From positions 1,951,516 to 2,015,515 of the forward strand of contig NZ_CP133319.1 of assembly GCF_038811545.1 (NCBI RefSeq): 64,000 nucleotides of DNA, in the 5' to 3' direction. Shown here one piece after another: positions 42,171 through 57,279 of the stretch. A program made the translations under genes and the position numbers. The stretch's first letter is position 1, and the number at the start of each line of letters is the position of its first letter. The DNA is from Rhodoligotrophos sp. CJ14. GTDB taxonomy: Bacteria; Pseudomonadota; Alphaproteobacteria; Rhizobiales; Im1. Below the pieces are notes generated by a model. The model saw only the letters and a program-made list of their open reading frames with translations, made no database searches and was not told the origin of the DNA.

Positions 42171-42312
42171 TCCAGCCCGGTCGCTACACACAGAGGCCAG
42201 TGAGCACAATCCGCTTTACTTCGCCAAATAACGAAATGAATTTCTTTTGTTTGCTGTTTACCGCAACCAATGGCCTGAGCAATGTGCCGGCCGATGAATG
42301 GGAGGTTTGGAC

Positions 42313-42921: not shown

Positions 42922-42931
42922 GACCCTGAAG

Positions 42932-42956
42932 GCGGGGCTCGTCCATCGAGCCCCGC
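42932..42956. terminator. Bidirectional terminator-like hairpin between convergent genes
   Basis: GCGGGGCTCG (42932-42941) and CGAGCCCCGC (42947-42956) are exact complements around a 5-base loop. It lies 11 bases after the DUF1989 stop and 13 bases after the convergent ureohydrolase stop. No U-run on either side. Confidence 0.7.
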
Positions 42957-42968
42957 AACCGTCCAGCT

Positions 42969-43964
42969 TTAGCGGATATGGGCCCGCCGCCAGGCATCCT
43001 TATGGCCGCCCCGCGCCGCGGCGAGACAGCATAGCGCTTCTGCCACCAGCCGCGCCGCGAGCACGCTCGTGGTGCCGCTCGCCGTATCGAAATCCGGCGA
43101 GACCTCGACCAGATCGAAGCCGGCAAACCCGTCGCGCCCGACGATGCGCACACCGCGAATGATCTCGCGCGAGGTGAGCCCGCCAGGCTCGAGGCTGTTC
43201 GTGCCCGGCGCAAAGGCGGGATCGACACTGTCGATATCGACGCTGATATAGAGCTTGGCACCGCCGGCTGTCGCGATATTGCGTGCCTTCTCCGCGACAG
43301 CCTCCATCCCTTCCTGCTCGATCTGCTCCATGGGAAATACCGAGATCCCCATTTCCTGATAGAGCGGCGTCCATTCCGGCAGATTGCGCGGCCCGCGCGC
43401 GCCAATAATGGCAACGCGCTTGGGGTCGATCTGATCGAGCTCACAGATCCGCAAAAGCGGTGATGCCCGCGTCAGCCGGTCTCCCTCCAGCGACTCGCTT
43501 AAGTCGAGATGCGTATCAAACACCACGAGGCCCATCGGGCTTTTATGATGGGAGGTCACCGCCTTCACGGCGGGGAACGAAATGCCGTGATCTCCGCCGA
43601 GGCTAAAGGGAACCGCGCCTTTCTCCAGCAGCTGCGTGAGCCTGTTCTCGAACCGGCGATAGCTCTCGGCATTATTGCCGGGCACCACATCCACATCGCC
43701 AACGTCAACGATTTTCAGATGCTCGACGATATCGACATCCCAGTCGAAATTGCGGCGCCCGAACAATAGCGAGAATTTCCGGATCTCCTGGGGTCCCCGG
43801 CGCGTGGCGCCGCCGCGGAACGTGGCAATGCCGTCATAGGGCATGCCGATGATCGCCGCATCCGCATCAAGCGTTGCGAGATCCGGCACATAATCGACCG
43901 CCATGAATGGCGGCACGTCCCCATAGATCTTTGGCACGTCACCCGGCCGAAGTGCTTCCCGCAT
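42969..43964 (-). CDS. Ureohydrolase family protein (agmatinase/guanidino-acid hydrolase type), copy 1
   Basis: A 331-residue arginase-superfamily enzyme that would release urea from a guanidino compound with a two-Mn centre. Ligand motifs are SLGGDHGIS (near 122), VVFDTHLDLSE (near 146, Thr in place of the usual Ala of DAHxD) and ISVDIDSVDPAFAPG (near 240). The following substrate loop reads TNSLEPGGLTSRE instead of the agmatinase TGTPxxGG, so the guanidino substrate probably differs from agmatine. It is divergent from the second ureohydrolase gene over 228 bases. Confidence 0.9.
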   Translation of the reverse strand: MREALRPGDVPKIYGDVPPFMAVDYVPDLATLDADAAIIGMPYDGIATFRGGATRRGPQEIRKFSLLFGRRNFDWDVDIVEHLKIVDVGDVDVVPGNNAESYRRFENRLTQLLEKGAVPFSLGGDHGISFPAVKAVTSHHKSPMGLVVFDTHLDLSESLEGDRLTRASPLLRICELDQIDPKRVAIIGARGPRNLPEWTPLYQEMGISVFPMEQIEQEGMEAVAEKARNIATAGGAKLYISVDIDSVDPAFAPGTNSLEPGGLTSREIIRGVRIVGRDGFAGFDLVEVSPDFDTASGTTSVLAARLVAEALCCLAAARGGHKDAWRRAHIR

Positions 43965-44192
43965 TCATCTTCCCCTAAACTGTGCCGCGGCCCGCGAAAT
44001 TAGGCCCGCACGCATGGACCTGTGCGCTGGATCGACACTTCCACCGCTCACCCCATCCTTAAATAGGAATAAGCCAAAGGTCACTTCGCGATTCCACGAA
44101 TGATCTCCGGACCTCGCCTATGTTCAAGACGCAGCCGACGCAGTAACACAGGCCCCAGAGCCATACGATCCAAGCACCGGAGAATCGGTCCC

Positions 44193-45152
44193 ATGTCTCA
44201 AAACGAGTTCCAGCCCATCGATGCGAGCTTGGTCCCGCGCTTTGCCGGGATCGCGAGCTTCATGCGCCTGCCGATCGTCTCCTCGCCCGAAGGTCTCGAC
44301 ATCGCCCTGTTCGGCATCCCATGGGATGGCGGCACCACCAATCGGGCCGGCGCCCGCCATGGCCCCCGTGAGATCCGCAATCAGTCGAGCCTGATGCGTC
44401 GGGTGCATCACGTCACCGGTACCGAGCCGTTCTCGATCGCGAAGATCGCCGATATCGGTGATGTCGGCGTAAACCCGATCGACCTGATGGACGGCCTGCG
44501 CCTGATCGAGGAAGGTGTCGCCCGGATTGTGAAGGCCGGTGCAATTCCGCTCGGTGCCGGCGGCGACCATCTGACCACACTGCCGGTCATGCGCGCGGTG
44601 GCCAAGCAGCGGCCGGTGGGCATGATCCATTTCGATGCCCATTCCGATACCAATGACCGCTATTTCGGCGAGAACCTCTATACCCATGGCACGCCGTTCC
44701 GTCGCGCCATAGAGGAAGGGCTGCTTGATCCAAAGCGCACCGTCCAGATCGGCATCCGCGGCTCGATCTATGATCCCGGCGAGCATGACTGGGCGCGCGA
44801 GCAAGGCATCCGCATCATCTATATGGAGGAATTCGTAAAGCGCGGTGCCGAAGAAGTCATGAGCGAAGCCCGCTCCATCGCTGGCAACGGGCCAACTTAC
44901 ATCTCCTTCGACATCGACTGTATCGACCCCTCCATGGCGCCGGGCACCGGCACGCCCGAGGTCGGCGGCTTCACCACCCGCGAGGCCCAGCAGATGCTCC
45001 GCCTGCTGGATGGCGTGAAGATCGTCGGCGCGGATGTGGTCGAAGTCGCGCCGCCTTTCGACATAGGCGGAATGACCGCGCTCGCCGGCGCAACCATGAT
45101 GTTCGAGCTACTCACGGTCATCGCGCGCCAGTGTGCCTCCACCAAGCGCTGA
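44193..45152 (+). CDS. Ureohydrolase family protein (agmatinase type), copy 2
   Basis: A 319-residue arginase-superfamily enzyme with canonical motifs: GAGGDHLTTLP (near 128), IHFDAHSDTND (near 152) and ISFDIDCIDPSMAPGTGTPEVGG (near 240), giving all six Mn ligands. GIPWDGGTTNRAGARHGPREIRN near 42 is standard for agmatinase and guanidinopropionase-type enzymes. I chose ATG 44193; the frame is open to 44100. It is only distantly similar to copy 1, so they are not a recent tandem duplication. Confidence 0.93.
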   Translation: MSQNEFQPIDASLVPRFAGIASFMRLPIVSSPEGLDIALFGIPWDGGTTNRAGARHGPREIRNQSSLMRRVHHVTGTEPFSIAKIADIGDVGVNPIDLMDGLRLIEEGVARIVKAGAIPLGAGGDHLTTLPVMRAVAKQRPVGMIHFDAHSDTNDRYFGENLYTHGTPFRRAIEEGLLDPKRTVQIGIRGSIYDPGEHDWAREQGIRIIYMEEFVKRGAEEVMSEARSIAGNGPTYISFDIDCIDPSMAPGTGTPEVGGFTTREAQQMLRLLDGVKIVGADVVEVAPPFDIGGMTALAGATMMFELLTVIARQCASTKR

Positions 45153-45207: not shown

Positions 45208-46215
45208 TCACTGGGTCGACTGAAACGGCTTGGTGACCTCCTGGAATTTCGCCCAGACGTCCGGGTGGCGATCGATGAACTCCTTGTTCGCCTCCAATGC
45301 GGCTTTCCGGAACTCTTCGCGCGCCTGATCGCTGACCTGCTTCGCCTCGCCGCCATTCTTCAGCATGCGATCGAAGGTCTCCTGATCGAGCTTCTTGGCC
45401 ACGGGCCAGTTGGTCCGGATAAGCTCCAGCGTCGTGTCTTCGACCACCTTGCGCAGATCCTCTGGCAGGCCCTTCAGCCAGGCATCATCCACCAGCACCG
45501 CGTAAGTCACGAGGCTGAGGCCCGGAACGAGGCTGGCTTTCGGCGCAGCGCTTGGGCCCACGATTTCCCAGCCCCCGGCTGAGGTGAAAATCCCGTCGAT
45601 CGCGCCCTGCATCAGCGCAGGCGCCATGTCGGCGGCCGACATCGACACCGGGCTCGCGCCGAACTCGCGCATGAGGTTGAGCAGCACGCGGCCACCGGTC
45701 ACCCGCACCTTCTGGCCTTCGAGATCGCCGATCTTCTCGATGAACTGGTCGCGGAAGATGAAGAACAGATCAGCCGTGCGGGCCAAACCCATCACCCGAA
45801 TGCCGCTGGGCTCCACATATTGCGAGAGGAACTTGCCGATGGCCTCAGGCGCACCCTGATGCATCATCATTTCGTCCGTGATGGCGAATGGCAGGCTGAT
45901 CACACCGGTTTCCGGCGCGATCGTCTCGAGCCTCACCGCCACCGGCCAGACCATGTGAACCGCGCCCGATCCAAGGGCCGCGACCGCGTCTTGATCTTTA
46001 TACAGCGTTCCCGCGTGGAACACCTTGGGCACGATGCGCCCTTGCGTCCTCTCCTGGATCGTCTTTGCGTAATCATCGATGATCTTGGTCGACCAATGGG
46101 TGGTCGACAGCTCATCCGTGATGATCATCTCGATCGGCGTCTGAGCTTTGGCGGGCCCCGAAATGAGACCGAGACCCAATCCGACCAGCGCGGCCAGCCT
46201 GGCTATTCGTTTCAT
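45208..46215 (-). CDS. TRAP transporter solute-binding protein (DctP family), without adjacent permease
   Basis: A 335-residue periplasmic protein. A signal peptide (MKRIARLAALVGLGLGLISG, ending near KAQ) precedes TPIEMIITDELSTTHWSTKIIDDYA. The binding arginine is expected in GQKVRVTGGRVLLNLMREFGASPVSM. GGGGAGGAAA precedes ATG 46215. No DctQM genes adjoin it; the orphan DctQM pair at 54571-56433 shares its regulatory palindrome, so they probably form one transporter. Confidence 0.92.
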   Translation of the reverse strand: MKRIARLAALVGLGLGLISGPAKAQTPIEMIITDELSTTHWSTKIIDDYAKTIQERTQGRIVPKVFHAGTLYKDQDAVAALGSGAVHMVWPVAVRLETIAPETGVISLPFAITDEMMMHQGAPEAIGKFLSQYVEPSGIRVMGLARTADLFFIFRDQFIEKIGDLEGQKVRVTGGRVLLNLMREFGASPVSMSAADMAPALMQGAIDGIFTSAGGWEIVGPSAAPKASLVPGLSLVTYAVLVDDAWLKGLPEDLRKVVEDTTLELIRTNWPVAKKLDQETFDRMLKNGGEAKQVSDQAREEFRKAALEANKEFIDRHPDVWAKFQEVTKPFQSTQ

Positions 46216-46283
46216 TGGATTTCCTCCCCAAGGAGCAACTGGGTCTCTCATTCTGACCCGGTCGCGCGAGAAAATCCAGACTC

Positions 46284-46295
46284 AAGTACGTACTT
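46284..46295. promoter_or_regulatory. Operator palindrome AAGTACGTACTT, copy 1
   Basis: A perfect 12-bp palindrome, 69 bases upstream of the TRAP binding-protein start and touching the stop codon of the MFS gene. The surrounding 15 bases CAAGTACGTACTTAT are identical at copy 2 (48417-48428). The GT...AC core is the kind bound by GntR-family regulators. Confidence 0.65.
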
Positions 46296-47514
46296 ATTCC
46301 GATGTCACATGCGCCATCTCGGCCCGTTCGGCGCGGCGACCGCTCCAGACCAGCAGGCTGCCGAGCAGCGGCAGGAAGCCCAGAACCGCGTAAGTGTCGG
46401 CATAGGAGCCGTAGAGCTGGTAGATCGAGGCGAAAAGCGACGGCCCGACAACGACCCCCAGGAAGGTGAGCCCGAGCACGCCGCCAGCCACCGGGCCGAC
46501 CTGCCCCGGCGGGCTCAGCCGCGCGGCTTCCGCCAGCATCACGCCGTTCCAGCCGATGGAGGCGGCACTGAACAGGCAGAGCACGGTTATGATCAGCCAG
46601 GGTGCAAATCCCGGCAGCAACGGCATCAGCATGGCGCTCACGCTCGTCATGCAGCCAATCGCGCCCAGGAGCCCGAGCCCCCAGCCCGTCCTGTCGGCAA
46701 CCCAACCCCAGAATACGCGCCCCACCGCTCCCGACATCTGCACCGCGGCTGCGGCGGCACCCGCTTGGATGGGCCGCCAGCCGAATTCTTCGACCAGCAT
46801 GACCACCGCGAAGGACGCCAGCGACAGCTGCATCGCCGAGAAAAGGAACCCCATTGTGGCGAGCGCTCGCAATGGCGGCCGCCCCCAGACGGCGCGCATG
46901 CCCTCCAGCATCGTGCCATGAAGCCTGTAGGCGGGATCACGCTGCCGATCCCAGCGTGCCCGCACCGCCTGCAGCAGGAGCACTGAGACGAGCCCCGCAG
47001 CCGCGAAGGTGAGAAGCCCCCAACGCCACCCGAAGGTGACCGCCATGCTCGGCAGCACGAGCGCCACCAGGATGCCGCCGAGCGGCACGGCCGTCTGTTT
47101 GAGCGAGAAGATGAGATTGCGCTTGCCCGGCGGTGCGAGCTTATCCAGGAGGTCCGATGCCGCGGGATTGGTCAGCGCATACCCCATGCCGATCAACATA
47201 GATGCGAAGACGGCGACAATGACACTGCCGGAGGCCAAACCCGCGAGCCCCAGCGCACCGGCCAGCAAAGCCATCTGGCTCACCCGCGCCGGACCGAACT
47301 TGCGCACGACCCCGCCGCCGAACATCGAAACGATCGTCGCCAGCAGATAGATGAGGCTCACCTGATAGCCAATCGCGTGCGCATCAACCCCGAGATCGGC
47401 CGAGGCCATCGGCGCGACCGTGGTAAGTGCCAGAGCCGCGGCGCTGGCCAAGGCCTGGATCGCCACCGCGCTCGCCAGCGCGACCGGCAGGCTCGTGACC
47501 GGATCGTTGCTCAC
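46294..47514 (-). CDS. Major facilitator superfamily transporter
   Basis: A 406-residue protein with 12 predicted helices. The loop after helix 2 is GGGVVRKFGPARVSQ and a long basic loop (RARWDRQRDPAYRLHGT) separates the halves. I chose the GTG at 47514, which overlaps the stop of the CoA-ester lyase gene (GTGA) and puts helix 1 at the N-terminus; the frame is open to 47598. It may be a second route of uptake or efflux for the acid handled by this cluster. The substrate is not predictable. Confidence 0.88.
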   Translation of the reverse strand: MSNDPVTSLPVALASAVAIQALASAAALALTTVAPMASADLGVDAHAIGYQVSLIYLLATIVSMFGGGVVRKFGPARVSQMALLAGALGLAGLASGSVIVAVFASMLIGMGYALTNPAASDLLDKLAPPGKRNLIFSLKQTAVPLGGILVALVLPSMAVTFGWRWGLLTFAAAGLVSVLLLQAVRARWDRQRDPAYRLHGTMLEGMRAVWGRPPLRALATMGFLFSAMQLSLASFAVVMLVEEFGWRPIQAGAAAAAVQMSGAVGRVFWGWVADRTGWGLGLLGAIGCMTSVSAMLMPLLPGFAPWLIITVLCLFSAASIGWNGVMLAEAARLSPPGQVGPVAGGVLGLTFLGVVVGPSLFASIYQLYGSYADTYAVLGFLPLLGSLLVWSGRRAERAEMAHVTSE

Positions 47515-48353
47515 ACCGAATCGCGCCCGGCGCGCGCCAGGATCTGGCGGCTGCGTTCGATGATCGGCCGCTCGACCAGCCGCCCATCCAGCAGGCAAAC
47601 CCCACCAGCGGCCTCCTCGAAAGCTGCGATCACCCGCCGCGCCTGCTCAACAACATCCGGATCCGGCGCGAGCATCTTGTGAATGATCGGCACCTGCTTT
47701 GGATGAATGGCTGCACGTCCCTTGAAGCCGAGCGCGAAGCTCCGCTGCATTTCGGCCCGTTCGCCGGCCTCGTCGGCAAGCGCAATCCACGGCATGTCTA
47801 TGGAGGATATAGCCGCCCCGGCGGCAGCTTGCACCAGCCTGGCGCGTCCGGGAAGCAACGGGTCCCACGCAATCTCGACGCCGAGCTCACTCGCGAGATC
47901 TGCGCCGCCGAACATTAAAAACGTCAGGAATGAAGAGGCTTTCGCAATCTTGGGCGCGTCCTCGATGCCCGCGCAGGTCTCGATCAGCGCGCCGATCTCT
48001 ATGGACTTATCCACATCCGCGATGAGATCTCCGAGAAGCGCCACATCGCCAACGGACGCCTTGGGCACCACGATGCCGCCAAACCTCGCCCCGCTGCTGG
48101 CCGCATCCAGGAGCCCCCCGAGATCGTGATGGCCGATCAGGCTTCGGGGCGAGTTTATCCTCACGAAGATGTCCCCCGCACCTTCGGGAGCCTCCTTGAG
48201 GAAGGCGAGAACGGCCCGGCGCGCATCGGCCTTGTCCTGTGGCGCCACAGCATCCTCGAGGTCGATGATGACCGCATCTGCCCCTGCGGCAATTGCCTTG
48301 CCCCATCGCTCCGGGCGACTTCCCGGCACGAATAGATAGGACCGGCGACTCAT
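47511..48353 (-). CDS. HpcH/HpaI aldolase/CitE-like CoA-ester lyase (candidate (S)-citramalyl-CoA lyase)
   Basis: A 280-residue TIM-barrel lyase. RRSYLFVPGSRPERWGKAIAAGADAVIIDLEDAV, IFVRINSP, LIETCAGIEDA and AIHPKQVPIIH are CitE/citramalyl-CoA lyase hallmarks, with Glu in IETCAG and Asp in the MFGGADLASELG stretch as Mg ligands. In the itaconate pathway this enzyme splits citramalyl-CoA to acetyl-CoA and pyruvate. I used ATG 48353; an in-frame ATG at 48383 has GGGGAG nearby and is an alternative. First gene of a two-gene unit with the MFS gene. Confidence 0.9.
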   Translation of the reverse strand: MSRRSYLFVPGSRPERWGKAIAAGADAVIIDLEDAVAPQDKADARRAVLAFLKEAPEGAGDIFVRINSPRSLIGHHDLGGLLDAASSGARFGGIVVPKASVGDVALLGDLIADVDKSIEIGALIETCAGIEDAPKIAKASSFLTFLMFGGADLASELGVEIAWDPLLPGRARLVQAAAGAAISSIDMPWIALADEAGERAEMQRSFALGFKGRAAIHPKQVPIIHKMLAPDPDVVEQARRVIAAFEEAAGGVCLLDGRLVERPIIERSRQILARAGRDSV

Positions 48354-48416
48354 CGCCTTGTGCACATTCACTCCTGACGACATCAGCTCCCCGACAAAAT
48401 CGCCCTTGACCACCAC

Positions 48417-48428
48417 AAGTACGTACTT
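48417..48428. promoter_or_regulatory. Operator palindrome AAGTACGTACTT, copy 2
   Basis: The second exact copy, centred in the divergent promoter between the lyase/MFS unit and the MaoC-to-GntR operon, about 55-65 bases from either start. With copy 1 it places all three transcription units of the cluster under one regulator, most likely the GntR protein at 56467-57279. Confidence 0.68.
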
Positions 48429-48483
48429 ATACCGTAAACATCGACATGAGAAGCGCAGTGGGCGCATAAGGGGGCAGAGCTGG

Positions 48484-48993
48484 ATGCAGACTGGGCAGGC
48501 GGTGAAGGAAACGCGGGTTATTCACGCGAGCTATGGCCGCTATCTCGAGGATTTCGCGGTCGGCGACATCTATGAGCACAGGCCCGGCCGCACGATCACG
48601 GAGGCGGACAACATCCAGTTCAGCCTCATGACCATGAATGCGCACCCCATGCATTGCGACGGCGCCTTTGCCGCGAAGTCGGAATTCGGCAAGCCCCTGG
48701 TCAATTCGGGACTAACCCTGGCCATCGTCCTCGGCATGACAGTAAACGACGTGAGCTTCAAGGCAATCGCCAATCTCGGCTGGAAAGAGATTAAGCTCAC
48801 CGCTCCCGTTTTTCCCGGCGACACGGTCTATGCCCGTTCCGAGGTTCTGGAGGTGCGCGAAAGCAAGTCGCGCCCGAACCAGGGCATCGTCACCACGCGC
48901 ACGGAAGGCTACAAGGCGGATGGTACCGTCTTCATGGAATTCACCCGTATGAGCCTCATCCCAAGGCGGGGCCACGGCGTGGGAGACGAGTAA
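48484..48993 (+). CDS. MaoC-like dehydratase (candidate itaconyl-CoA hydratase)
   Basis: A 169-residue hot-dog-fold protein. SYGRYLEDFAVGDIYEHRPGRTITEADNIQFSLMTMNAHPMHCDGAFA carries the hydratase motif in the variant form MNxHPxHxD typical of itaconyl- and mesaconyl-CoA hydratases. LVNSGLTLAIVLGMTVND follows. It would hydrate an unsaturated dicarboxylyl-CoA. I used ATG 48484. First gene of a nine-gene operon ending with the GntR gene; PrpD follows after 85 bases. Confidence 0.9.
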   Translation: MQTGQAVKETRVIHASYGRYLEDFAVGDIYEHRPGRTITEADNIQFSLMTMNAHPMHCDGAFAAKSEFGKPLVNSGLTLAIVLGMTVNDVSFKAIANLGWKEIKLTAPVFPGDTVYARSEVLEVRESKSRPNQGIVTTRTEGYKADGTVFMEFTRMSLIPRRGHGVGDE

Positions 48994-49078
48994 GCCTGGA
49001 CCGGTCAAGCATCGGCCCGCCTATGACGAATAATTGCCAGCAGCTGAGCATGCTGCAGAAGACATCAGGAGGAACGCC

Positions 49079-50518
49079 ATGAGCATCGCTTCTCGAGTGG
49101 TGACGAGCCCGTCCAGCGCGCATCAGGATGCACCCGCTCCCATGGCCGACCCCTCGGTCGAGCTCGCCCGTTTTGCAGCGACCTTGCGCCACGAGGATAT
49201 TCCCGAAGCGATCCGCGCCCGGGCCTGTCATCACATCCTCGATGCGACTGGAATAGCGCTCGCTTCTACCAAGTTCGACTTCGCCCAGCGCACCCTCACC
49301 GCCATCGCCGGTCTGTCCGGTGGCGGCGCCGTGCCGGTCATCGGCATGCCCGCCTGGCTTCCACCCCGCGATGCGGCAACGGTCAATGGGCTGCTCTGCC
49401 ATGGGCTCGATTTCGACGACACCCATCTCGCGGGTGTTGTCCATCCGACCTCCAGCGCGTTCCCGGTGAGCCTCTCCGCGGGCATTCATGCCGGCGCCAC
49501 CGGTCGCGATCTGCTGACGGCCACCATCATCGGCCTCGAAGCTTCCGCGCGCCTCGGCGCTGTCGCCAAGGGCGGCTTCCATCAGGTCGGCTTCCACCCG
49601 ACCGGCCTCGTCGGCGCCTTCGGCTGCGCTCTGGCCGCCGGAGCCCTGTTCGGCCTGTCCGAGCGCGAGCTCGTCAATGCGCAAGGCATCGTTCTCTCCA
49701 TGGCCTCGGGTAGCCTGGAATTCCTGGAGGACGGCGCCTGGAACAAGCGGCTGCACCCGGGCTGGGCCGCCGCCGCCGGCATCACCGCCGCAGCCCTGGC
49801 CAAACAAGGCTTCAAGGGCGCATCCAACCCCTATACCGGCCGGTTCGGGCTTTATCGCTCCCATCTCGGCCCGCTCGCCGAAAACTGCGATTATTCCCTC
49901 GCAACCGCAGGGCTCGGCGAGAGCTGGGAAGTGCTGCAGACTGCAATCAAGCCCTTTCCCGCCTGCCACTTTACCCATGGCTGCGTCGATGCCGCGCTGA
50001 TCCTGCGCAACCGCGGTCTCGACATCGACGCGATCGCCGAGATCGAAGCCTTCGTTCCGGCCGAGGTCGTCAAGACCGTCTGCGAGCCCGAGGCGAACAA
50101 GAAGCGCCCGGCCAACAGCTATGACGCCCAATTCTCAATTCCCTACCTTGTCGCCGCAGCTCTCGCCCGTGGTCAGCTCACCCTGGCGGAATTGGAGGAG
50201 CCAGCGCTGAGCGATCCCGTGATCCTCGCCGTGGCCGACAAGGTCGCCTACCGCATCGACCCCGGTTCCGCATTTCCGAAGGCCTATTCGGGCGAAGTGC
50301 GGATCAGCTTCAACAATGGTGAGCGCATGGCCGCCCGCGAGCAGATCAATCGCGGGGCCCCCGACCGGCCATTGAGCGATGCGGATATCATCGAGAAATT
50401 CCGCGCCAATGCGGCCATGTCCGTCCGCCCCTCGACCGCCACGCGTATCGAGGACGCGGTGCTGGCCCTCGATGCGACGGATGATCTCGCGGGCTTTGCC
50501 AGAACCATAGCCGGCTGA
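49079..50518 (+). CDS. MmgE/PrpD family protein
   Basis: A 479-residue protein of the 2-methylcitrate dehydratase/cis-aconitate decarboxylase fold. GLDFDDTHLAGVVHPTSSAFPVSLSAG carries the family DDTH and HPxSS region, and FHPTGLVGAFGCALAAG, LHPGWAAAAGITAAALAKQGF and KPFPACHFTHGCVDAAL follow. AGGAGGAA precedes the ATG at 49079. A homologue sits in the itaconate cluster of Pseudomonas aeruginosa (PA0881), but its reaction there is not established. The first 25 residues look like a flexible addition. Confidence 0.92.
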   Translation: MSIASRVVTSPSSAHQDAPAPMADPSVELARFAATLRHEDIPEAIRARACHHILDATGIALASTKFDFAQRTLTAIAGLSGGGAVPVIGMPAWLPPRDAATVNGLLCHGLDFDDTHLAGVVHPTSSAFPVSLSAGIHAGATGRDLLTATIIGLEASARLGAVAKGGFHQVGFHPTGLVGAFGCALAAGALFGLSERELVNAQGIVLSMASGSLEFLEDGAWNKRLHPGWAAAAGITAAALAKQGFKGASNPYTGRFGLYRSHLGPLAENCDYSLATAGLGESWEVLQTAIKPFPACHFTHGCVDAALILRNRGLDIDAIAEIEAFVPAEVVKTVCEPEANKKRPANSYDAQFSIPYLVAAALARGQLTLAELEEPALSDPVILAVADKVAYRIDPGSAFPKAYSGEVRISFNNGERMAAREQINRGAPDRPLSDADIIEKFRANAAMSVRPSTATRIEDAVLALDATDDLAGFARTIAG

Positions 50519-50558
50519 GCGTTAGCGCTTCGCCAAGCCAGTATCGAGGATCTATCCG

Positions 50559-51737
50559 ATGAATGTCTCACGCCCAATGGGCGATCGAACCGAACGCGAC
50601 GAGCAGGAGCAGCTGATCCTGGACAGCCTCGATCGCTTTCTAGACCGCCATGTCCGCCCCTATGCCATGCAGCTTGAGCATGACGACACCTATCCCGACG
50701 AAATCGTCGAGCAGATGAAGGAGCTGGGGCTGTTCGGGGCGATCATCCCCGCGGAATATGGCGGACTTGGCCTGCGTCCCTCCACTTACGCCAAGATCAT
50801 CGAGCGCATCTCCACCGTCTGGATGTCCTTGAGTGGCATAATCAATTCACACCTGATCATGGCGCATATCGTGGCCCGCAAGGGCACCGAAGAGCAGCGG
50901 GCGAAATTTCTGCCGCGCTTTGCAACGGGCGAGCTGCGCGGCGGCCTCGCGTTGACGGAGCCCGATTGCGGCACCGACCTTCAGGCGATCCGGACCACGG
51001 CGATGCGCAACGGCGATGCCTATGTGGTCAATGGCACCAAGACCTGGATTTCCAACGGCATCAAGGGATCGTGCTTTGCGCTGCTGGTGAAGACTGATCC
51101 CGCCGCGGAGCCGCGCCACAAGGGCATGAGCATGTTCCTCGCCGAGAAGGGCGAGGGCTTCGCCGTCAGCCGCAAGCTCGAAAAGCTCGGCTATAAGGGC
51201 ATCGATTCCGCCGAGCTGGTCTTCACCGATTACCGCATTCCGGCCGACCGCCTCATTGGCGGCGTCGAAGGCCAGGGCATGGCCTGCGCGATCACGGGGC
51301 TGGAGCTCGGCCGGGTGAATGTGGCAGCCCGCGGTGTCGGCATTGCACAGGCCGCGCTGGATGAGGCCGTACGCTATTCCCAGCAGCGGCGCACCTTCGG
51401 CAAGCCGATCTACCAGCATCAAGCCATTGCCATGAAGCTTGCGGACATGGCGACGCGCACCGAGGCTGCCCGTCTTCTCGTCCGCCAGGCGGCGGATGCG
51501 CTCGATCGCGGCGAACGCTGCGACTACGAGGCCGGCATGGCCAAGCTCTTCGCAACTGAAGCGGCCGTCGAGAATGCCCTGGAGGCCATGCGCATCCATG
51601 GCGGCTATGGCTATAGCAAGGAATTTCTCGTCGAGCGTCTCTATCGCGATGCGCCCCTGCTGGTGATCGGCGAGGGCACCAACGAGATCCAGCGCATCGT
51701 CATTGCCAAGCGGCTGATCGAGCAGAACCGGATCTGA
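50559..51737 (+). CDS. Acyl-CoA dehydrogenase
   Basis: A 392-residue FAD enzyme with all classical marks: ELGLFGAIIPAEYGGLGL, LALTEPDCGTDLQAIRTTA, VVNGTKTWISNG, RRTFGKPIYQHQAIAMKLADM and the catalytic glutamate in LLVIGEGTNEIQRIVIAKRL. IHGGYGYSKEF precedes it. PA0879 in the P. aeruginosa itaconate cluster is its positional counterpart; it could oxidise a methyl- or alkylsuccinyl-CoA to feed the pathway. CaiB follows 7 bases later. Confidence 0.94.
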   Translation: MNVSRPMGDRTERDEQEQLILDSLDRFLDRHVRPYAMQLEHDDTYPDEIVEQMKELGLFGAIIPAEYGGLGLRPSTYAKIIERISTVWMSLSGIINSHLIMAHIVARKGTEEQRAKFLPRFATGELRGGLALTEPDCGTDLQAIRTTAMRNGDAYVVNGTKTWISNGIKGSCFALLVKTDPAAEPRHKGMSMFLAEKGEGFAVSRKLEKLGYKGIDSAELVFTDYRIPADRLIGGVEGQGMACAITGLELGRVNVAARGVGIAQAALDEAVRYSQQRRTFGKPIYQHQAIAMKLADMATRTEAARLLVRQAADALDRGERCDYEAGMAKLFATEAAVENALEAMRIHGGYGYSKEFLVERLYRDAPLLVIGEGTNEIQRIVIAKRLIEQNRI

Positions 51738-51744
51738 TCCCGAC

Positions 51745-52953
51745 ATGTCCGAGATGCCTCAGAACCTCCCCCTTGATGGCGTCACCGTCCTCGCCGTCGA
51801 GCAATATGGCGCCGGCCCTTTCGGCACCATGCTGCTCGGCGATCTCGGCGCGGAGGTCATCAAGATCGAAAATCCGCACAATGGCGGCGATGTCGGACGC
51901 CATGTCGGCCCCTATTACTTCTCCGAGCTCGACAGTCATTTCTACCAGTCCTTCAACCGCAATAAGCGCAGCCTGACCCTCGACCTCAAGCATCCCGAGG
52001 GAATGAAGCTCTTTCACGAGCTGGTTCGCAACGCCGATGCGGTATTGGACAACCTCCGCGGCGACCTGCCAGATAAGCTCGGGCTCACCTACCGCGCGCT
52101 CGGCGAAATCAACCCGAAGGTCGTTTGCTGCCACCTCTCCGCCTATGGCCGCGAGGGCGAGCGCCGCGCCTGGCCCGGCTATGATTATCTTATGCAGGCC
52201 GAGGCCGGCTATCTCAGTGTGACCGGCGAGCCGGACGGACCGCCCACCCGCATGGGCCTCTCGATCGTAGACATGATGACCGGGCTGATGGCTGGATTTG
52301 CTCTGGTCTCAGGCATTGTTGGTGCGCGCAGCACCGGCCGGGGCATGGATCTCGACGTCAGTCTGTTCGATACCGCGCTCCACAATCTCACCTATCTCGC
52401 GACCTGGTATCTCAATGCCGGACACGTGCAGGCGCGCGAGCCCCGCTCGTCCCATCCCTCGCTCACACCCTCCCAGCTCTATCGCACCAAGGACGGCTGG
52501 CTCTTTGTCATGTGCAACAAGGAGAAATTCTGGCCGATCTTCGCCGAAAGGATCGGCCGGCCCGATCTCGCCACGGACGAGCGCTTCGCCACTTTCGCAG
52601 CACGTCTGAAATCGAGGGCCGAGCTGACCGAGCTGCTTGATGCGACCCTTGCGACAAAGACGAGCGCCGAATGGACCGCGATTCTCGGCGGCCATGTGCC
52701 GATCGCGCCAGTCCTCGACATCGGCGAGGCCCTGGAGAACCCATTCGTGACAGAGCATGGCCGGCTTGCTGAATTTAAGCGTCCCGAGGGTGGCGAGCCC
52801 GTCCGCATGCTTGCCGGACCGATCCGGGTCAATGGCAACCCCGCACCGGCAAAGGCGGCCCCCGCCATGGGCTTCGATACGGACGCATTACTATCGAGGC
52901 TCGGCTACGACCAGGACACGATCTCGGCCATGCGCCGCAAGGGTTTCATCTGA
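51745..52953 (+). CDS. CaiB/BaiF family CoA-transferase (candidate itaconate CoA-transferase)
   Basis: A 402-residue class III CoA-transferase. LPLDGVTVLAVEQYGAGPFGTMLLGDLGAEVIKIENP and FNRNKRSLTLDLKHPEGM are the N-terminal hallmarks. The catalytic aspartate is in WPGYDYLMQAEAGYLSVTG (about residue 155). Its role would be to move CoA, probably from succinyl-CoA, to the imported acid, as Ict does for itaconate. Its TGA overlaps the ATG of the next small gene by one base, showing tight coupling. Divergent in sequence from the CaiB at 31264-32454. Confidence 0.93.
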   Translation: MSEMPQNLPLDGVTVLAVEQYGAGPFGTMLLGDLGAEVIKIENPHNGGDVGRHVGPYYFSELDSHFYQSFNRNKRSLTLDLKHPEGMKLFHELVRNADAVLDNLRGDLPDKLGLTYRALGEINPKVVCCHLSAYGREGERRAWPGYDYLMQAEAGYLSVTGEPDGPPTRMGLSIVDMMTGLMAGFALVSGIVGARSTGRGMDLDVSLFDTALHNLTYLATWYLNAGHVQAREPRSSHPSLTPSQLYRTKDGWLFVMCNKEKFWPIFAERIGRPDLATDERFATFAARLKSRAELTELLDATLATKTSAEWTAILGGHVPIAPVLDIGEALENPFVTEHGRLAEFKRPEGGEPVRMLAGPIRVNGNPAPAKAAPAMGFDTDALLSRLGYDQDTISAMRRKGFI

Positions 52954-53165
52954 TGCAGGCCTCTGATCCCTTCCTCGCGCGCCAATGGCTCGCACTCACC
53001 CAGGGCATCGAGGCCGATCACGAGATGGCTGACCGCACGCTGTTGCTCATGCAGGCGAGCCACGTGGCACTTGAGCGTGCCATCGAACAGGTTCGGATGC
53101 TGCGCGCGGGGGAGCCCTTGTTCGACGTTCGCATCGCGAAATTCGATGCTCTCCTGCGGAGATGA
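52953..53165 (+). CDS. Small protein of unknown function between CoA-transferase and amidase
   Basis: A 70-residue, mostly helical protein (predicted from ADHEMADRTLLLMQASHVALERAIEQVRMLRAG) without signal peptide or membrane segment. I do not recognise the family. It is translationally coupled to the CaiB stop and ends 4 bases before the amidase start, so it is expressed with both. By size and place it might be a helper subunit of the amidase, in the way GatC supports GatA, but no GatC motif is seen. Confidence 0.7.
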   Translation: MQASDPFLARQWLALTQGIEADHEMADRTLLLMQASHVALERAIEQVRMLRAGEPLFDVRIAKFDALLRR

Positions 53166-53169
53166 ACTC

Positions 53170-54540
53170 ATGAGCGCGGCGCTTCACCTTACCTTATGCG
53201 AAGCGGCAGAGGCGATCGCGCAAGGCAGGATCACCTCCGAAGCCCTCGTCACGCAAGCAATCGAGAGGGTCGAGGCGCTCAATCCGAAGCTCAACGCCTT
53301 TGTGGATCTGGAATCGGACGAAGCCCTCGAACAAGCCCGCAAGCTCGACAGGGAGCAAGTAGCCGGCCGCTCGCGCGGCCCCTTGCACGGTGTGCCCCTG
53401 GCCCATAAGGACATGTACTATAGGGCCGGAAAGGTGTCGGGCTGTGGGTCCAGCATCCGGCGCGATTTCGTTGCATCCACCACCTCTCCCCTGTTGGAGC
53501 GGCTGGAGGCCGCCGGCGCCGTCAACCTCGGCCGTCTGCATATGGCGGAATTCGCCATGGGTCCCACCGGCCACAACGCCCATCTCGGCCGATGCTGCAA
53601 TCCGTGGGATCTCGACCGGATCAGCGGCGGCTCCTCCTCGGGCTCCGGTGCAGCCGTTGCTGCCCGGCTCGTATTCGGCGCCCTTGGTTCTGACACCGGT
53701 GGCTCGATCCGCTTGCCCGCGGCGATGTGCGGCATCGTCGGTCTGAAACCCACCCAAGGCCTTCTCGCGACCGACGGCATGATGGGCCTGTCCGAAAGCC
53801 TCGATTGCCCGGGGCCGCTGGCCCGCTCCAGCCGCGACATTGCCCGTCTGATGGATATCATGTCGGGTGGATCCCATGAAGCTGCCTTGGCGAGCCCGGT
53901 TACGGGTATGGTGCTCGGTATTCCCCGGACCTTTTATTGGGAGGACTTGGCCCCCTCTGTCGCAAACCGCCTCGAAAGGGCGCGGCGCGTCATGGAGGAC
54001 GCGGGCCTCGAAATCATCGACGTCGACATTCCCGACCACTCGGCGCTGGCCGATCTCGCCGACCTCGTCTGGACGCCGGAGGCGGCGGCCTTGCACCTCC
54101 CCTGGCTGCGCGAGCGGCCCCACGATTACGGCGCCCAGGTTCGCGCCCGCCTCATTCAGGGACTTGCCATCTCGGCCACCGCATATCTGCGTGCCCGCCA
54201 GCTACGCACGCTCGCGCTCGAAGCGATGCTCTCCGGCCCGCTTGCCCGATGCGATGCGCTCTTCGTGCCTGCGATCCGGCGCAGCGTGCCAAGCGCGGCC
54301 GAGACCGACACCGGCTCCAATCCCAATATGCGCGAGGTTCTCGCCAGCATCACCGCGCTGACACGGCCGCTCTCTTATCTCGGCCTGCCGGGACTGGTGA
54401 CACCGGCCGGCTTCGACGAGCAAGGCCTGCCCGTGGCGATGCAACTGATTGGCCGGCCGCGGGAAGAGGCAGCTCTTCTGCGCATCGCGCACGCTTTCGA
54501 GGAACGAACAGGGTTCCTGCACGAAGCCCCCTCAGTTTGA
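53170..54540 (+). CDS. Amidase signature family protein
   Basis: A 456-residue amidase with the Ser-cisSer-Lys triad in place: Lys80 in GVPLAHKDMYY, Ser155 in SGGSSSGSGAAVAA and Ser179 in SDTGGSIRLPAA; the spacings are those of malonamidase E2. It hydrolyses an amide or aryl/alkyl amide to a carboxylic acid. Its place inside a CoA-dependent acid pathway suggests that it releases the acid from an amide precursor. This gene is not part of the P. aeruginosa itaconate locus. Start at ATG 53170, length usual for the family. Confidence 0.94.
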   Translation: MSAALHLTLCEAAEAIAQGRITSEALVTQAIERVEALNPKLNAFVDLESDEALEQARKLDREQVAGRSRGPLHGVPLAHKDMYYRAGKVSGCGSSIRRDFVASTTSPLLERLEAAGAVNLGRLHMAEFAMGPTGHNAHLGRCCNPWDLDRISGGSSSGSGAAVAARLVFGALGSDTGGSIRLPAAMCGIVGLKPTQGLLATDGMMGLSESLDCPGPLARSSRDIARLMDIMSGGSHEAALASPVTGMVLGIPRTFYWEDLAPSVANRLERARRVMEDAGLEIIDVDIPDHSALADLADLVWTPEAAALHLPWLRERPHDYGAQVRARLIQGLAISATAYLRARQLRTLALEAMLSGPLARCDALFVPAIRRSVPSAAETDTGSNPNMREVLASITALTRPLSYLGLPGLVTPAGFDEQGLPVAMQLIGRPREEAALLRIAHAFEERTGFLHEAPSV

Positions 54541-54570
54541 CCGCAAAACGCCAACTGTGGGGAGACGCCC

Positions 54571-55155
54571 ATGTCTGAGCCGCAATTTGCTTCACCCGAT
54601 GCGCATGCAGCCGGTGCAGAGCGCTCCGAACCAGCGGCGCGACCCGACAGCAGCATCGCGCGGCTACTTATGTTCATCGAGGAACACATTCTCCTCAATA
54701 TCGCGACCGTGCTGATGGCCGCGAGCATGGTGATCATGTTCTACGAGGCCTGCAGCCGTACGCTTCTTTCAGAGAGTCATTGGTGGGCGGAGGAAGCCGT
54801 GCGCTTTCTCGTGGTCTGGAGCATTATGCTCGCATTCGGAATTGCCACCCGGAAGGGCAATTACATCCGCATGGACCTGTTCGTCTCGGCCATGCCCCAC
54901 GCGTTTCAGCGGGCGGCCGCCTGGCTCAACTGCCTCGCCGGCCTCTTATTCGCCATTCTGGTCGTGATTGCCGGCACAATCGGCGTCATGCACCTGCACC
55001 GGGTCGGCATGTACACGGAATCCAACCTCGACCTGCCTCTGTGGATCGTGCGTCTTGCACTGCCGATCGGCGCCGCGTTCTATGCCCTCTACTTCGTGAC
55101 AGTCGCTGTTGCTCTGCTGCGCGGAGAAGATGAGGCACAATCCAATGCGCATTGA
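54571..55155 (+). CDS. TRAP transporter small permease (DctQ type), second system
   Basis: A 194-residue protein with four predicted helices. It has a hydrophilic N-terminal stretch of about 30 residues (ERSEPAARPDSS). EAVRFLVVWSIMLAFGIATRKGNYIRMDLFV is the DctQ signature. GGGGAGAC precedes the ATG. It pairs with the large permease 9 bases downstream. The binding protein of this system is most likely the one encoded at 45208-46215. Confidence 0.92.
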   Translation: MSEPQFASPDAHAAGAERSEPAARPDSSIARLLMFIEEHILLNIATVLMAASMVIMFYEACSRTLLSESHWWAEEAVRFLVVWSIMLAFGIATRKGNYIRMDLFVSAMPHAFQRAAAWLNCLAGLLFAILVVIAGTIGVMHLHRVGMYTESNLDLPLWIVRLALPIGAAFYALYFVTVAVALLRGEDEAQSNAH

Positions 55156-55164
55156 GGCGAGTTC

Positions 55165-56433
55165 ATGACCACGATCATTGCTGTCGGAAGCCTCTTGGCG
55201 CTGATTTCCCTGGGTGTCCATATTGCGGTCGGCCTGGGACTGGTGGCCATCGGCCTCATCCTTTTCGAAGCCAATATTCCGCTCAATCTGGCCGCTCAGG
55301 CGGCCTGGGACGGCATCGACAAATATTCCCTCGTCGCGATCCCCTTCTTCATCTTCGCTGGCAATATGATGTCGCGCGGAGACCTTGCGCTCGTCATCCT
55401 GGATCTGGTCGGCTGTCTCGTCCGCTGGTTCAGGGGCGGCATCGCGCTTGCAGTTGCTGCATCGAGCGTATTCTTCGCCGCGGTGAACGGCTCGAGCGTC
55501 GCCTGCGCCGTGGCCCTTGGCCCCGCAGCCACCCGTCTCATGCCCAAAGAAGGCTATCCCCAGCAATTCGCCGCAGCGCTCGTGGCCGTGTGCGGCACGC
55601 TGGGCCTGATGATCCCGCCCTCGCTAACCTTCATCCTCATCGGCTCCATCATGGGCCTGCCGGTCTCCGACCTGTTCATCGCCGGCATCATTCCGGGGCT
55701 GTTGGAGGCATCATTGCTGGGATTGACCACGATCATCCTGTCGCGCTGGAAAGGCTATGGCGGCGACACGCGCCCGATCGACATTCCCGGCTTCGTCTCG
55801 CGGCTGCCGCGGGCAGCTGGCGCAATCGCCATGCCGATCCTGATCGTCGGCTCGATCTATGCAGGCTTCTTCACACCCACGGAAGTCTCGGCCCTTGCCG
55901 CGATTTATGCAGTCATTCTCGTGCTCTTCGTTTATCGCACGGCGAACATCAAGGCGGTCTGGGAGACGGCCCAGGACTCCGTGATGCAGACGGTCCTCAT
56001 CTACGGCATCCTGCTCGCCTCGGGCCTTCTGACGGTGGTCCTGACCCGGCTCGGACTGGCCGCTGAGCTCACCCGCTTCATGCTGGAATACCAGGTCTCA
56101 GCCTTCGAGTTCCTGCTCGTGGTCAACCTCGCGCTGATCGTCATCGGCATGTTCATCGACGGCGTATCGATGATCGTGCTGCTCGCCCCCCTCCTCTTTC
56201 CCATGGCGCACACGGCAGGCATCAATCCCATCCACTTCGCCGTCATCATGACCGCGCTCGTCGAGGTGGCAACGCTCACCCCACCGGTCGGCCTCAACCT
56301 CTTCGTGATGAGCCGCATCACCAACCTGCCAATACACAAGGTCATTGCCGGCGTATTTCCGTTCTATGCTATGCGGGTGGTGGCGTTGATCCTGATCAAT
56401 GCCTTTCCATACCTTTCCCTGGCGCTGCTCTGA
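55165..56433 (+). CDS. TRAP transporter large permease (DctM type), second system
   Basis: A 422-residue membrane protein with about 12 helices. GSSVACAVALGPAATRLMPKEGY, GTLGLMIPPSLTFILIGSIMGLP and LTPPVGLNLFVMSRITN are DctM signatures. It is paralogous to the DctM at 27496-28782. With DctQ and the separate binding protein it would import a carboxylate with sodium. The GntR gene follows after 33 bases. Confidence 0.95.
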   Translation: MTTIIAVGSLLALISLGVHIAVGLGLVAIGLILFEANIPLNLAAQAAWDGIDKYSLVAIPFFIFAGNMMSRGDLALVILDLVGCLVRWFRGGIALAVAASSVFFAAVNGSSVACAVALGPAATRLMPKEGYPQQFAAALVAVCGTLGLMIPPSLTFILIGSIMGLPVSDLFIAGIIPGLLEASLLGLTTIILSRWKGYGGDTRPIDIPGFVSRLPRAAGAIAMPILIVGSIYAGFFTPTEVSALAAIYAVILVLFVYRTANIKAVWETAQDSVMQTVLIYGILLASGLLTVVLTRLGLAAELTRFMLEYQVSAFEFLLVVNLALIVIGMFIDGVSMIVLLAPLLFPMAHTAGINPIHFAVIMTALVEVATLTPPVGLNLFVMSRITNLPIHKVIAGVFPFYAMRVVALILINAFPYLSLALL

Positions 56434-56466
56434 TCAGCGTCGGGAAGCCGCCTCTAGGAACCTGCA

Positions 56467-57279
56467 GTGCGTAAGAGTGCCACGGCCCTCGCCATGACTG
56501 AGAGCACGATCTTGAAGGACGCCGACACGAATGTGCCGCTCTACCTCAAGGTCGCGCGCGCCCTTCAGCAGCAGATCGCGATTGGCGAATATCCCATCGG
56601 CAGCCTTTTGCCGACCGAGGTGGAGCTTGGGACGCGCTATGGCGTGAGCCGGCAGACGGTGCGCCAGGCGATCCAGTTCTTAAGGCAGCAGAAGCTGCTC
56701 TCAGCGAAGAAGGGCGTTGGCACCCGCGTGGAAGCCCGCCAGCCGCAACGCGGCTATTATTTCGCTCTGCATTCCCTCACACAGATTTTCCAATTCGCAG
56801 CAGAAGCGGCCCTCCATGTCGATCGGGAGGAGGAAATCGAGGTCCGCGGCGCGCTTGCCGCAGAGCTTGCCTCCCGACCGGGGCGCAAATGGCTTCACCT
56901 GGTCGGAACGCGCCAGACCATCGGCAATGATCTGCCGATCAGTTGGACCGAAGTCTATATCGACGGACGCTATGCCCGACTGTTTCGCGGCAGCAAGATC
57001 CACCATTCCGCGATCTTTTCCGCGATCGAGAACTCTTCCGGCGAGCCGGTGACCGAAGTCCAGCAGGAAATCAACGCAACGGTGCTGAGCAAGGAACTTG
57101 CCGCAAGCCTGAAGGCCGAGCCGGGCTCGCCCGCTCTGGTCATCACCCGTCGCTATTTCGGCGCGGGCCACCGTCTGTTCGAGATGTCGGTGAACATTCA
57201 CCCCGCGGACCGCTTCTCCTATGCGATCTCGCTGAAGCGCGAGCTCACCTGGGAGAATGAACCTGGATCCAAGCGGTAA
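56467..57279 (+). CDS. GntR family (HutC type) transcriptional regulator
   Basis: A 270-residue regulator. The winged helix (about 24-90) reads LYLKVARALQQQIAIGEYPIGSLLPTEVELGTRYGVSRQTVRQAIQFL, and the UTRA ligand domain (about 105-255) has ISWTEVYIDGRYARLF and PGSPALVITRRYF. The start is a GTG with AGGAA upstream; ATG at codon 10 is an alternative. As the last gene of the operon it probably controls itself and the cluster through the two AAGTACGTACTT sites, answering to the imported acid or a CoA-free intermediate. Confidence 0.92.
   Translation: MRKSATALAMTESTILKDADTNVPLYLKVARALQQQIAIGEYPIGSLLPTEVELGTRYGVSRQTVRQAIQFLRQQKLLSAKKGVGTRVEARQPQRGYYFALHSLTQIFQFAAEAALHVDREEEIEVRGALAAELASRPGRKWLHLVGTRQTIGNDLPISWTEVYIDGRYARLFRGSKIHHSAIFSAIENSSGEPVTEVQQEINATVLSKELAASLKAEPGSPALVITRRYFGAGHRLFEMSVNIHPADRFSYAISLKRELTWENEPGSKR

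Follow-up and report, generated by a model that had tools for sequence, protein, structure and literature searches.

Closest described systems and gene content of the cluster

The described systems closest to the locus analyzed here are the itaconate and methylsuccinate cluster of Pseudomonas aeruginosa (PA0878-PA0886) and Cupriavidus necator, which comprises Ict, Ich, Ccl, Mcd (methylsuccinyl-C4-CoA dehydrogenase), Msi, and the TRAP transporter IctPQM, and the Yersinia pestis-type rip cluster, which comprises RipA, RipB, and RipC; a convergent origin is reported for the P. aeruginosa and Y. pestis types (PMC12290011). For methylsuccinate, the same study and work cited there establish a logic of five steps in both C. 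necator and P. aeruginosa. Related enzyme families are found in a twelve-gene cluster at positions 45208-57279 of a 64,000-nucleotide stretch of the Rhodoligotrophos sp. CJ14 genome (RefSeq assembly GCF_038811545.1, contig NZ_CP133319.1, positions 1,951,516 to 2,015,515 of the forward strand), the whole of which is called the window here. This cluster was not found in literature searches of the open PMC subset, where the work on the topic concerned P. aeruginosa, C. necator, Y. pestis, and other known itaconate systems. The cluster is conserved as a unit and is non-orthologous to the P. aeruginosa set. In our reading, to which we give a probability of about 0.5, it is a catabolic cassette under common regulation that differs from the itaconate/methylsuccinate locus and acts on a 2-substituted succinate (R-CH(COOH)-CH2-COOH) or the corresponding half-amide.

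Using a Pfam scan, it was found that all of the enzyme families named in the original prediction are present, as are the four genes it regarded as gains (an amidase, a 70-residue protein, an MFS carrier, and a GntR regulator). The resemblance to itaconate-type clusters that it described stands at the level of families, and this combination is linked in published work to C5 branched dicarboxylates (PMC12290011, PMC9875883). The twelve genes are listed below; four starts were placed downstream of those of the longest open reading frames (ORFs), namely, lyase at about 48353, MaoC at 48484, amidase at 53170, and MFS at about 47517.

45208-46251, minus strand: DctP, TRAP substrate-binding protein (Pfam PF03480, 148 bits)
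46294-47517, minus strand: MFS carrier (PF07690, 106 bits; longest ORF to 47598, start set at a GTG near 47517)
47511-48353, minus strand: CitE/HpcH-type (HpcH/HpaI) CoA-ester lyase (PF03328, 102 bits; longest ORF to 48467)
48484-48993, plus strand: MaoC hydratase, RipB-like, single hot-dog domain (longest ORF from 48358)
49034-50518, plus strand: MmgE/PrpD protein, proposed free-diacid isomerase/epimerase (PF03972, PF19305)
50559-51737, plus strand: acyl-CoA dehydrogenase (PF00441/02770/02771)
51745-52953, plus strand: CaiB/family III CoA-transferase (PF02515, 390 bits)
52953-53165, plus strand: 70-residue protein (orf70), a possible amidase partner from its position
53170-54540, plus strand: amidase-signature hydrolase, AtzE/GatA-like (PF01425, 334 bits; longest ORF from 53071)
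54571-55155, plus strand: DctQ, TRAP small permease (PF04290)
55165-56433, plus strand: DctM, TRAP large permease (PF06808, 318 bits)
56467-57279, plus strand: GntR-family regulator with a UTRA effector domain (PF00392, PF07702)

From a divergent promoter region (48353-48484), the lyase, MFS, and dctP genes run outward on the minus strand, while maoC, mmgE, acad, caiB, orf70, amidase, dctQ, dctM, and gntR follow one another on the plus strand. The ATG of orf70 shares one base with the caiB stop codon, and the amidase ATG (53170) lies 4 bases past the orf70 stop codon. DctP scored above the TRAP_S1 cutoff and under that of TIGR00787 dctP (95 of 175 bits), and the best PDB match of the dehydrogenase was 4iv6, FadE3 (457 bits).

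Comparison with the P. aeruginosa itaconate locus

The locus of P. aeruginosa PA7 (L042) was used as the reference. Identity between window and PA7 proteins was 33% for CaiB and Ict, 32.5% for MmgE and Msi, 33.5% for the dehydrogenases, 35% for the lyase and Ccl, 24% for DctP, 29% for DctQ, and 34% for DctM. The window MaoC had no match to PA7 Ich at E 1e-3, the only match being one of 50 residues at E 0.36. The Ict proteins of C. necator and P. aeruginosa (PA0882) share 60% identity (PMC12290011).

Hidden Markov models (HMMs) were built here from 14 to 18 hand-picked Pseudomonas-type rows, the training scores being high by construction. With the Ict HMM, the window CaiB scored 206 bits compared to 783 to 847 for 17 training rows; with the Mcd HMM, the window dehydrogenase scored 214 bits compared to 806 to 878 (17 rows); and with the Ccl HMM, the window lyase scored 161 bits compared to 440 to 507 (17 rows). 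The Msi HMM, for which there was no positive control outside training, gave 184 bits for the window MmgE and 853 to 944 for 14 training rows; the published Msi HMM has a cutoff of 550 (PMC12290011), and the scores given here come from our own model. The Ich HMM (training range, 398 to 533 bits) did not match the window MaoC.

Trees were built from hand-chosen loci, with BLAST matches of less than 300 (CaiB and dehydrogenase), 200 (lyase), or 120 (MaoC) residues dropped; branches are very long for several rows, most of all among the dehydrogenases. The window CaiB and dehydrogenase group with those of Azospirillum and a genome designated G353 (100/98 and 100/99, respectively). The window CaiB thus fails as an Ict orthologue by its 33% identity, its low HMM score, and its separate clade in the tree, and the window MaoC, lyase, and dehydrogenase fail as orthologues of Ich, Ccl, and Mcd by identity and HMM score. 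Similarly, the window DctP does not appear to match the IctP type, as 9HT3 and 9HT4 were not among its three PDB matches at E 1e-15, their presence in that copy of the PDB being unconfirmed.

Overall, the two systems share clustered genes for CaiB, CitE-like, acyl-CoA dehydrogenase, MmgE/PrpD, and TRAP proteins, and a CoA-ester hydratase is also present in both, although that of the window is from another subfamily. Unlike the P. aeruginosa and C. necator cluster, the window has a UTRA-GntR regulator, an extra amidase, the 70-residue protein, and an MFS carrier, and it lacks the Msi residues. The absence of a LysR regulator is a further contrast named in the original prediction. The claim that the locus holds the same set as PA0878-PA0886 is not supported, given identities of 24 to 35% where any meaningful match exists, the DctP type, and the presence of a P. 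aeruginosa-type operon elsewhere in the genome. The cluster is non-orthologous to the P. aeruginosa set.

A P. aeruginosa-type operon elsewhere in the same genome

A search of the CJ14 genome with PA7 Ich gave a 47% match at G000:C1:4162554-4163381. It lies within G000:C1:4162419-4165743 (L217:10420-13744), where genes for Ich (47%), Ict (63%), and the dehydrogenase (76% to PA7) are consecutive, forming a P. aeruginosa-type operon approximately 2.16 Mb from the window cluster. With the HMMs, the proteins of this distant operon scored 594 (CaiB), 753 (dehydrogenase), and 302 (Ich) bits, which is below the training ranges but far above the window proteins, and in the trees its CaiB and dehydrogenase group with those of Pseudomonas and Pseudogulbenkiania (99/97 and 99/96, respectively). 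No Ccl or Msi match was found in the 19.5-kb stretch around the operon; the best Ccl match of the genome, 43% identical to PA7 Ccl, lies at C1:4712472-4713341, beside a second RipB-like MaoC.

With a P. aeruginosa-type operon and a separate cassette in one genome, domain content is a misleading guide by itself: CaiB, MaoC, CitE-like, dehydrogenase, and MmgE/PrpD proteins together are easily taken for itaconate degradation, with the implications for host immunity that this carries. On the evidence of orthology, the operon in the same genome, the trees, and the HMM scores, the itaconate assignment of the original prediction found no support, and itaconate specificity was set aside as the leading reading.

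A further stretch of this genome, L187 (G000:C1:66000-84000), encodes two MmgE/PrpD proteins, two CaiB proteins, an amidase, an MFS carrier, and a distant acyl-CoA dehydrogenase, which are 27 to 37% identical to window or PA7 proteins.

Conservation of the cluster in other genomes

The genes on Azospirillum brasilense plasmid p4 (NZ_CP032343; L034) are arranged identically, except that a further GntR gene separates caiB from the small ORF. Eleven of the twelve window proteins have a tblastn match in this stretch, in matching order, with identities of 86% for the dehydrogenase, 82% for MaoC, 74% for DctM, 70% for CaiB, 67% for MmgE, 63% for the amidase, 61% over 154 residues for DctQ, 54% for DctP, 50% for the lyase, 44% for MFS, and 37% for GntR, the last standing at the same place as the window GntR. 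The counterpart of the twelfth gene, orf70, was identified by position. With eleven of twelve genes matched in order and the twelfth by position, the gene set is far from chance, and the twelve genes form one unit. Seven Azospirillum plasmid records match; the order was read from one, and the other six match MmgE, CaiB, MaoC, the amidase, and DctP. In genome G353 (L169), genes for MFS, lyase, MaoC, MmgE, the dehydrogenase, CaiB, a 73-residue ORF, the amidase, and GntR are found together, and no TRAP genes were matched in its 19.5-kb stretch.

Window-type MmgE (at least 50% identity) was found at 11 loci, the window counted. A window-type dehydrogenase and CaiB are present in nine, partly by selection, as six of the 11 were fetched through a dehydrogenase or CaiB match. 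At the same loci, MaoC and GntR are each present in seven, the CitE lyase in six, MFS in five, a DctPQM homologue set in three, and the amidase in three (window, Azospirillum, and G353). Of the four loci found by MmgE alone (L034; L035, from Caballeronia plasmid pSBC1_2; L036, from Pseudosulfitobacter; and L167), three have the dehydrogenase and two a window-type CaiB. The ORFs in fetched loci are mechanical, with some lengths inflated, and some stretches stop at contig ends.

The gene set is rare among the genomes sampled, these being partial samples of the order (297 genomes), class (385), phylum (398), and family (4). In the order sample, MmgE matched at E 1e-60 in 32 of 297 genomes, with at least 46% identity in only three, the CJ14 genome included. 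CaiB matched at E 1e-125 in 6 of 398 genomes of the phylum sample, again including CJ14, and at E 1e-110 in two of four genomes of the family sample, the second at only 50% identity.

Two operator-like palindromes

A perfect 12-bp palindrome, AAGTACGTACTT, occurs at two places in the cluster.

46284-46295, no strand: AAGTACGTACTT, putative operator 1, 33 bp upstream of the dctP ORF start
48417-48428, no strand: AAGTACGTACTT, putative operator 2, in the divergent lyase/maoC promoter region

These are the only two copies in the whole 4.81-Mb genome, in which the reversed control pattern has one exact match. Putative operator 1 shares 2 bases with the MFS stop codon. When up to two mismatches were tolerated, two or more matches to the palindrome arose in 4 of 100 shuffled versions of the window. 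Azospirillum has counterparts at both positions, TTGTACGTACAA in the stretch between the divergent genes and TTGTACGGACAA between the dctP and MFS genes. Similar sites were found before maoC in Pseudosulfitobacter L036 (TGTCCGGACA) and Caballeronia L035 (TGTCCGTACA), and in locus L182, TGTCCGGACA lies at the start of the mechanical maoC ORF. The UTRA-GntR protein is predicted to bind the two palindromes as its operators.

Proposed pathway

The five enzyme families of the cluster match the five-step logic published for methylsuccinate, which supports a pathway of the following kind; its transfer to a 2-substituted succinate would be by analogy, and we infer every reaction, the substrate, and the pairing of regulator with operators. 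The compound would be imported by DctPQM, the MFS carrier, or both, and the amidase, perhaps with the 70-residue protein, would release the diacid and ammonia. The MmgE/PrpD protein would interconvert stereoisomers of the free diacid, after which CaiB, with succinyl-CoA as donor, would load CoA onto the carboxylate distal to R. The dehydrogenase would then form the 2,3-unsaturated CoA ester, the RipB-like MaoC would hydrate it, and the CitE-like lyase would cleave the product to acetyl-CoA and R-CO-COOH. The UTRA-GntR protein would govern the unit via the two palindromes. The host, a soil or plant-associated bacterium, probably relies on the cluster for the uptake and breakdown of a small branched dicarboxylic acid or its amide.

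A more specific version is put forward tentatively: the input may be the amide or half-amide of some 2-substituted succinate besides methylsuccinate, hydrolyzed by the amidase and its small partner and epimerized by a new MmgE/PrpD enzyme that has a His-His pair in place of His-Tyr, yielding acetyl-CoA and a 2-oxo acid under one two-palindrome GntR regulon. If this is true, the route would be an undescribed one, and plants or the breakdown of tetrapyrroles, imides, or chelators could, for example, supply the amide.

Several observations weigh against the cassette as read here. The lyase is less conserved (50% to Azospirillum) than MaoC and the dehydrogenase. Its counterparts in L035, L036, and L182 belong to a different type, scoring 219 to 228 bits with the P. 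aeruginosa Ccl HMM compared to 161 for the window lyase and placed elsewhere in the lyase tree, whose deep fork is weak; the lyase is the least settled enzyme of the cluster. Locus L167 has MmgE, MFS, and GntR without a window-type CaiB, MaoC, or lyase, and its dehydrogenase is only 27% identical. The amidase is limited to three of the 11 close loci. Of 10 related stretches, 5, with G353 among them, yielded no operator-like pattern of the kinds searched for, and a match in L121 falls within an annotated CoA-transferase gene. The window MmgE lacks the Tyr of known epimerases and could catalyze another reaction.

The amidase, its small neighbor, and an amide or imide input

The models nearest to the amidase, those of indoleacetamide hydrolase (319 of 532 bits) and AtzE (310 of 461 and 295 of 426 bits), both have cutoffs above its scores. 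As in AtzE-AtzG (1-carboxybiuret hydrolase and its small subunit), an AtzE-like amidase is directly preceded by a small ORF; in contrast to that pair, the window amidase is below the AtzE cutoffs, and comparisons of sequence, profile, and fold gave no link between the small protein and AtzG or GatC. The 70-residue ORF is probably a real gene, since counterparts of 78 residues in Azospirillum and 73 residues in G353 stand at the matching place; they are 29 and 28% identical to it, with 12 of 85 columns invariant. It had no credible family match in Pfam (including at E 10), in curated models, or in a profile search against the PDB. Its AlphaFold2 model is helical (mean predicted local distance difference test score, 87.8), with no Foldseek fold match at E 0.001. 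A profile of six amidase-adjacent small proteins matched designed helical repeats in the PDB (E 4e-5, no single stretch being significant), CcmP (E 0.003), and others, with AtzG and GatC not among the matches, and hhalign to AtzG/GatC gave a probability of 2.4%. Identification of the protein as AtzG/GatC gained no support from these comparisons and is retained solely as a guess from position.

From the gene content, an amide or imide feed is plausible. In an alternative that we consider rather doubtful, the input would be a cyclic imide, lactam, or half-amide, the amidase would be the entry step, and the acyl part may be larger than C5. It gains from related dehydrogenase modules that carry ring-opening amide hydrolases: in Tistrella (L041), a PuuE-like protein (allantoinase model, 260 bits; cutoff, 424) is encoded near a related dehydrogenase, and in Rhodococcus pyridinivorans, a caprolactamase-like HyuA, HyuB, and an amidase are encoded near such a module. 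Relatives of the Tistrella protein (58 to 98% identity) occur in 9 of 40 fetched stretches. However, a search of the CJ14 genome with the Tistrella query at E 1e-20, made without a positive control, found no PuuE-like gene, and the amidase is confined to 3 of the 11 closest loci. PuuE-like proteins presumably include a cyclic imide hydrolase, which literature searches did not bear out.

PuuE-like genes together with a window-type dehydrogenase were seen at ten loci (the Tistrella plasmid locus L041 and L180, L183, L186, L192, L193, L195, L197, L204, and L205). Two adjacent CaiB genes are present in 8 of the 10, often with MaoC, a CitE lyase, or short-chain dehydrogenases/reductases, and this module looks like an undescribed amide or imide pathway.

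Hydratase, lyase, and relatives of the rip cluster

The best named families for the window MaoC and lyase are RipB (RipB_Ich model, 192 bits; cutoff, 340) and RipC (RipC_Ccl model, 239.5 bits; cutoff, 375), respectively, with both scores under the curated cutoffs. The original prediction raised the possibility of nearest homologues from a different pathway, and this is borne out in part: the nearest relatives of CaiB, MmgE, the dehydrogenase, and the TRAP proteins are uncharacterized rather than itaconate enzymes, but this does not extend to MaoC and the lyase.

The window MaoC is 56% identical to the annotated RipB of Paraburkholderia caribensis, and the lyase is 35.5% identical to the citrate-lyase-family protein encoded next to it; in P. 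caribensis, the labels RipC (lyase) and RipA (transferase) are given here from their place beside the annotated ripB. The likeness to the Y. pestis-type rip cluster lies in this relatedness. In contrast to that cluster, the window lacks an acetyl-CoA hydrolase/transferase-type RipA and has an extra dehydrogenase, MmgE, and amidase. RipA is a family I CoA-transferase, and the sole CoA-transferase among the 12 scanned gene products is of family III. As the hydratase is nearest to RipB (56%), similar chemistry on a 2-substituted succinate is likely.

These relationships also bear on an alternative that we regard as unlikely, in which the window holds a second, independently assembled itaconate/methylsuccinate cluster, with CaiB as itaconate CoA-transferase, MaoC as itaconyl-CoA hydratase, the lyase as citramalyl-CoA lyase, and the dehydrogenase and MmgE as the methylsuccinate branch. 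The families are the same, MaoC and the lyase point to RipB and RipC, and a convergent origin is published for the P. aeruginosa- and Y. pestis-type clusters (PMC12290011). Mixed clusters are in its favor as well: Pseudosulfitobacter L036 joins window-type MaoC, MmgE, and dehydrogenase to an Ict-like transferase (324 bits with the Ict HMM; grouping with Ict, 100/99), and a Thermus plasmid cluster joins an Ict-type transferase (553 bits) and dehydrogenase (599 bits) to a RipB-like MaoC and a two-subunit fumarase-type hydratase, so a RipB-like hydratase can sit in a C5 pathway, which also fits the main reading, and a C5 substrate is conceivable. The distant operon is without an adjacent Ccl, so the window lyase could serve that operon. 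However, the genome already has relatives of Ich, Ict, and the dehydrogenase (47, 63, and 76%), the window proteins score far under the Pseudomonas-type range, MmgE is without Glu91 and Tyr148 of Msi, and DctP appears not to be of the IctP type. An Ich-like protein is encoded beside a MaoC with 81% identity to the window MaoC in Paraburkholderia sp. 22B1P; this pairing suggests that the two hydratase types differ in role and need not share a step.

In the Caballeronia locus (L035:4909-6684), a full succinate dehydrogenase flavoprotein gene (922 bits, above the SdhA cutoff) lies immediately before maoC. Immediately after the lyase gene, S-adenosylmethionine-dependent methyltransferase genes were found in L182 (13358-14059) and L036 (13051-13737); a link to trans-aconitate methyltransferase was dropped, as no such match was among the 25 best models listed for them.

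The MmgE/PrpD protein

The best PDB match of the window MmgE was iminodisuccinate epimerase (2hp0/2hp3; 139 bits). The His, Asp, His, His, Lys, Lys set of this enzyme is retained; the catalytic His, the His that binds the carboxylate, and both Lys residues are conserved. Its Tyr145, however, is matched by a His of the window MmgE. In place of Glu91 and Tyr148 of Msi (PMC12290011), the window has Asp and His, with the positions of the Msi Tyr and the window-clade His offset by one alignment column. All 15 distinct counted rows of the window clade (at least 43% identity) have Asp and His at these positions, three of the rows (L037-L039) coming from other gene contexts. This residue pattern points to a different member of the family. 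It is highly improbable that the protein is instead a dehydratase or hydratase of a hydroxy-dicarboxylate or tricarboxylate (2-methylcitrate-like), with the dehydrogenase in a different branch, as the weak matches to PrpD models (48 bits; cutoff, 950) and a second base position occupied by His, unlike in both epimerases, are set against PDB relatives of the iminodisuccinate epimerase and IRG1 types (114 to 139 bits) that score well above PrpD (48 to 53 bits) and against retention of the catalytic His and both Lys residues.

MmgE/PrpD homologues were called mostly uncharacterized in a 2025 study (PMC12290011). The cassette, with its 12 genes, two operator-like sites, and Azospirillum counterpart, offers a testable set for a new substrate in this family.

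Flanking genes

The genes on both sides of the cluster look unrelated to it. Downstream lies a branched-chain-type ABC transporter on the minus strand. Upstream, window positions 41349-45152 carry an ABC ATPase gene, a DUF1989 gene, and two divergent arginase-family genes, which are probably a separate nitrogen-compound locus.

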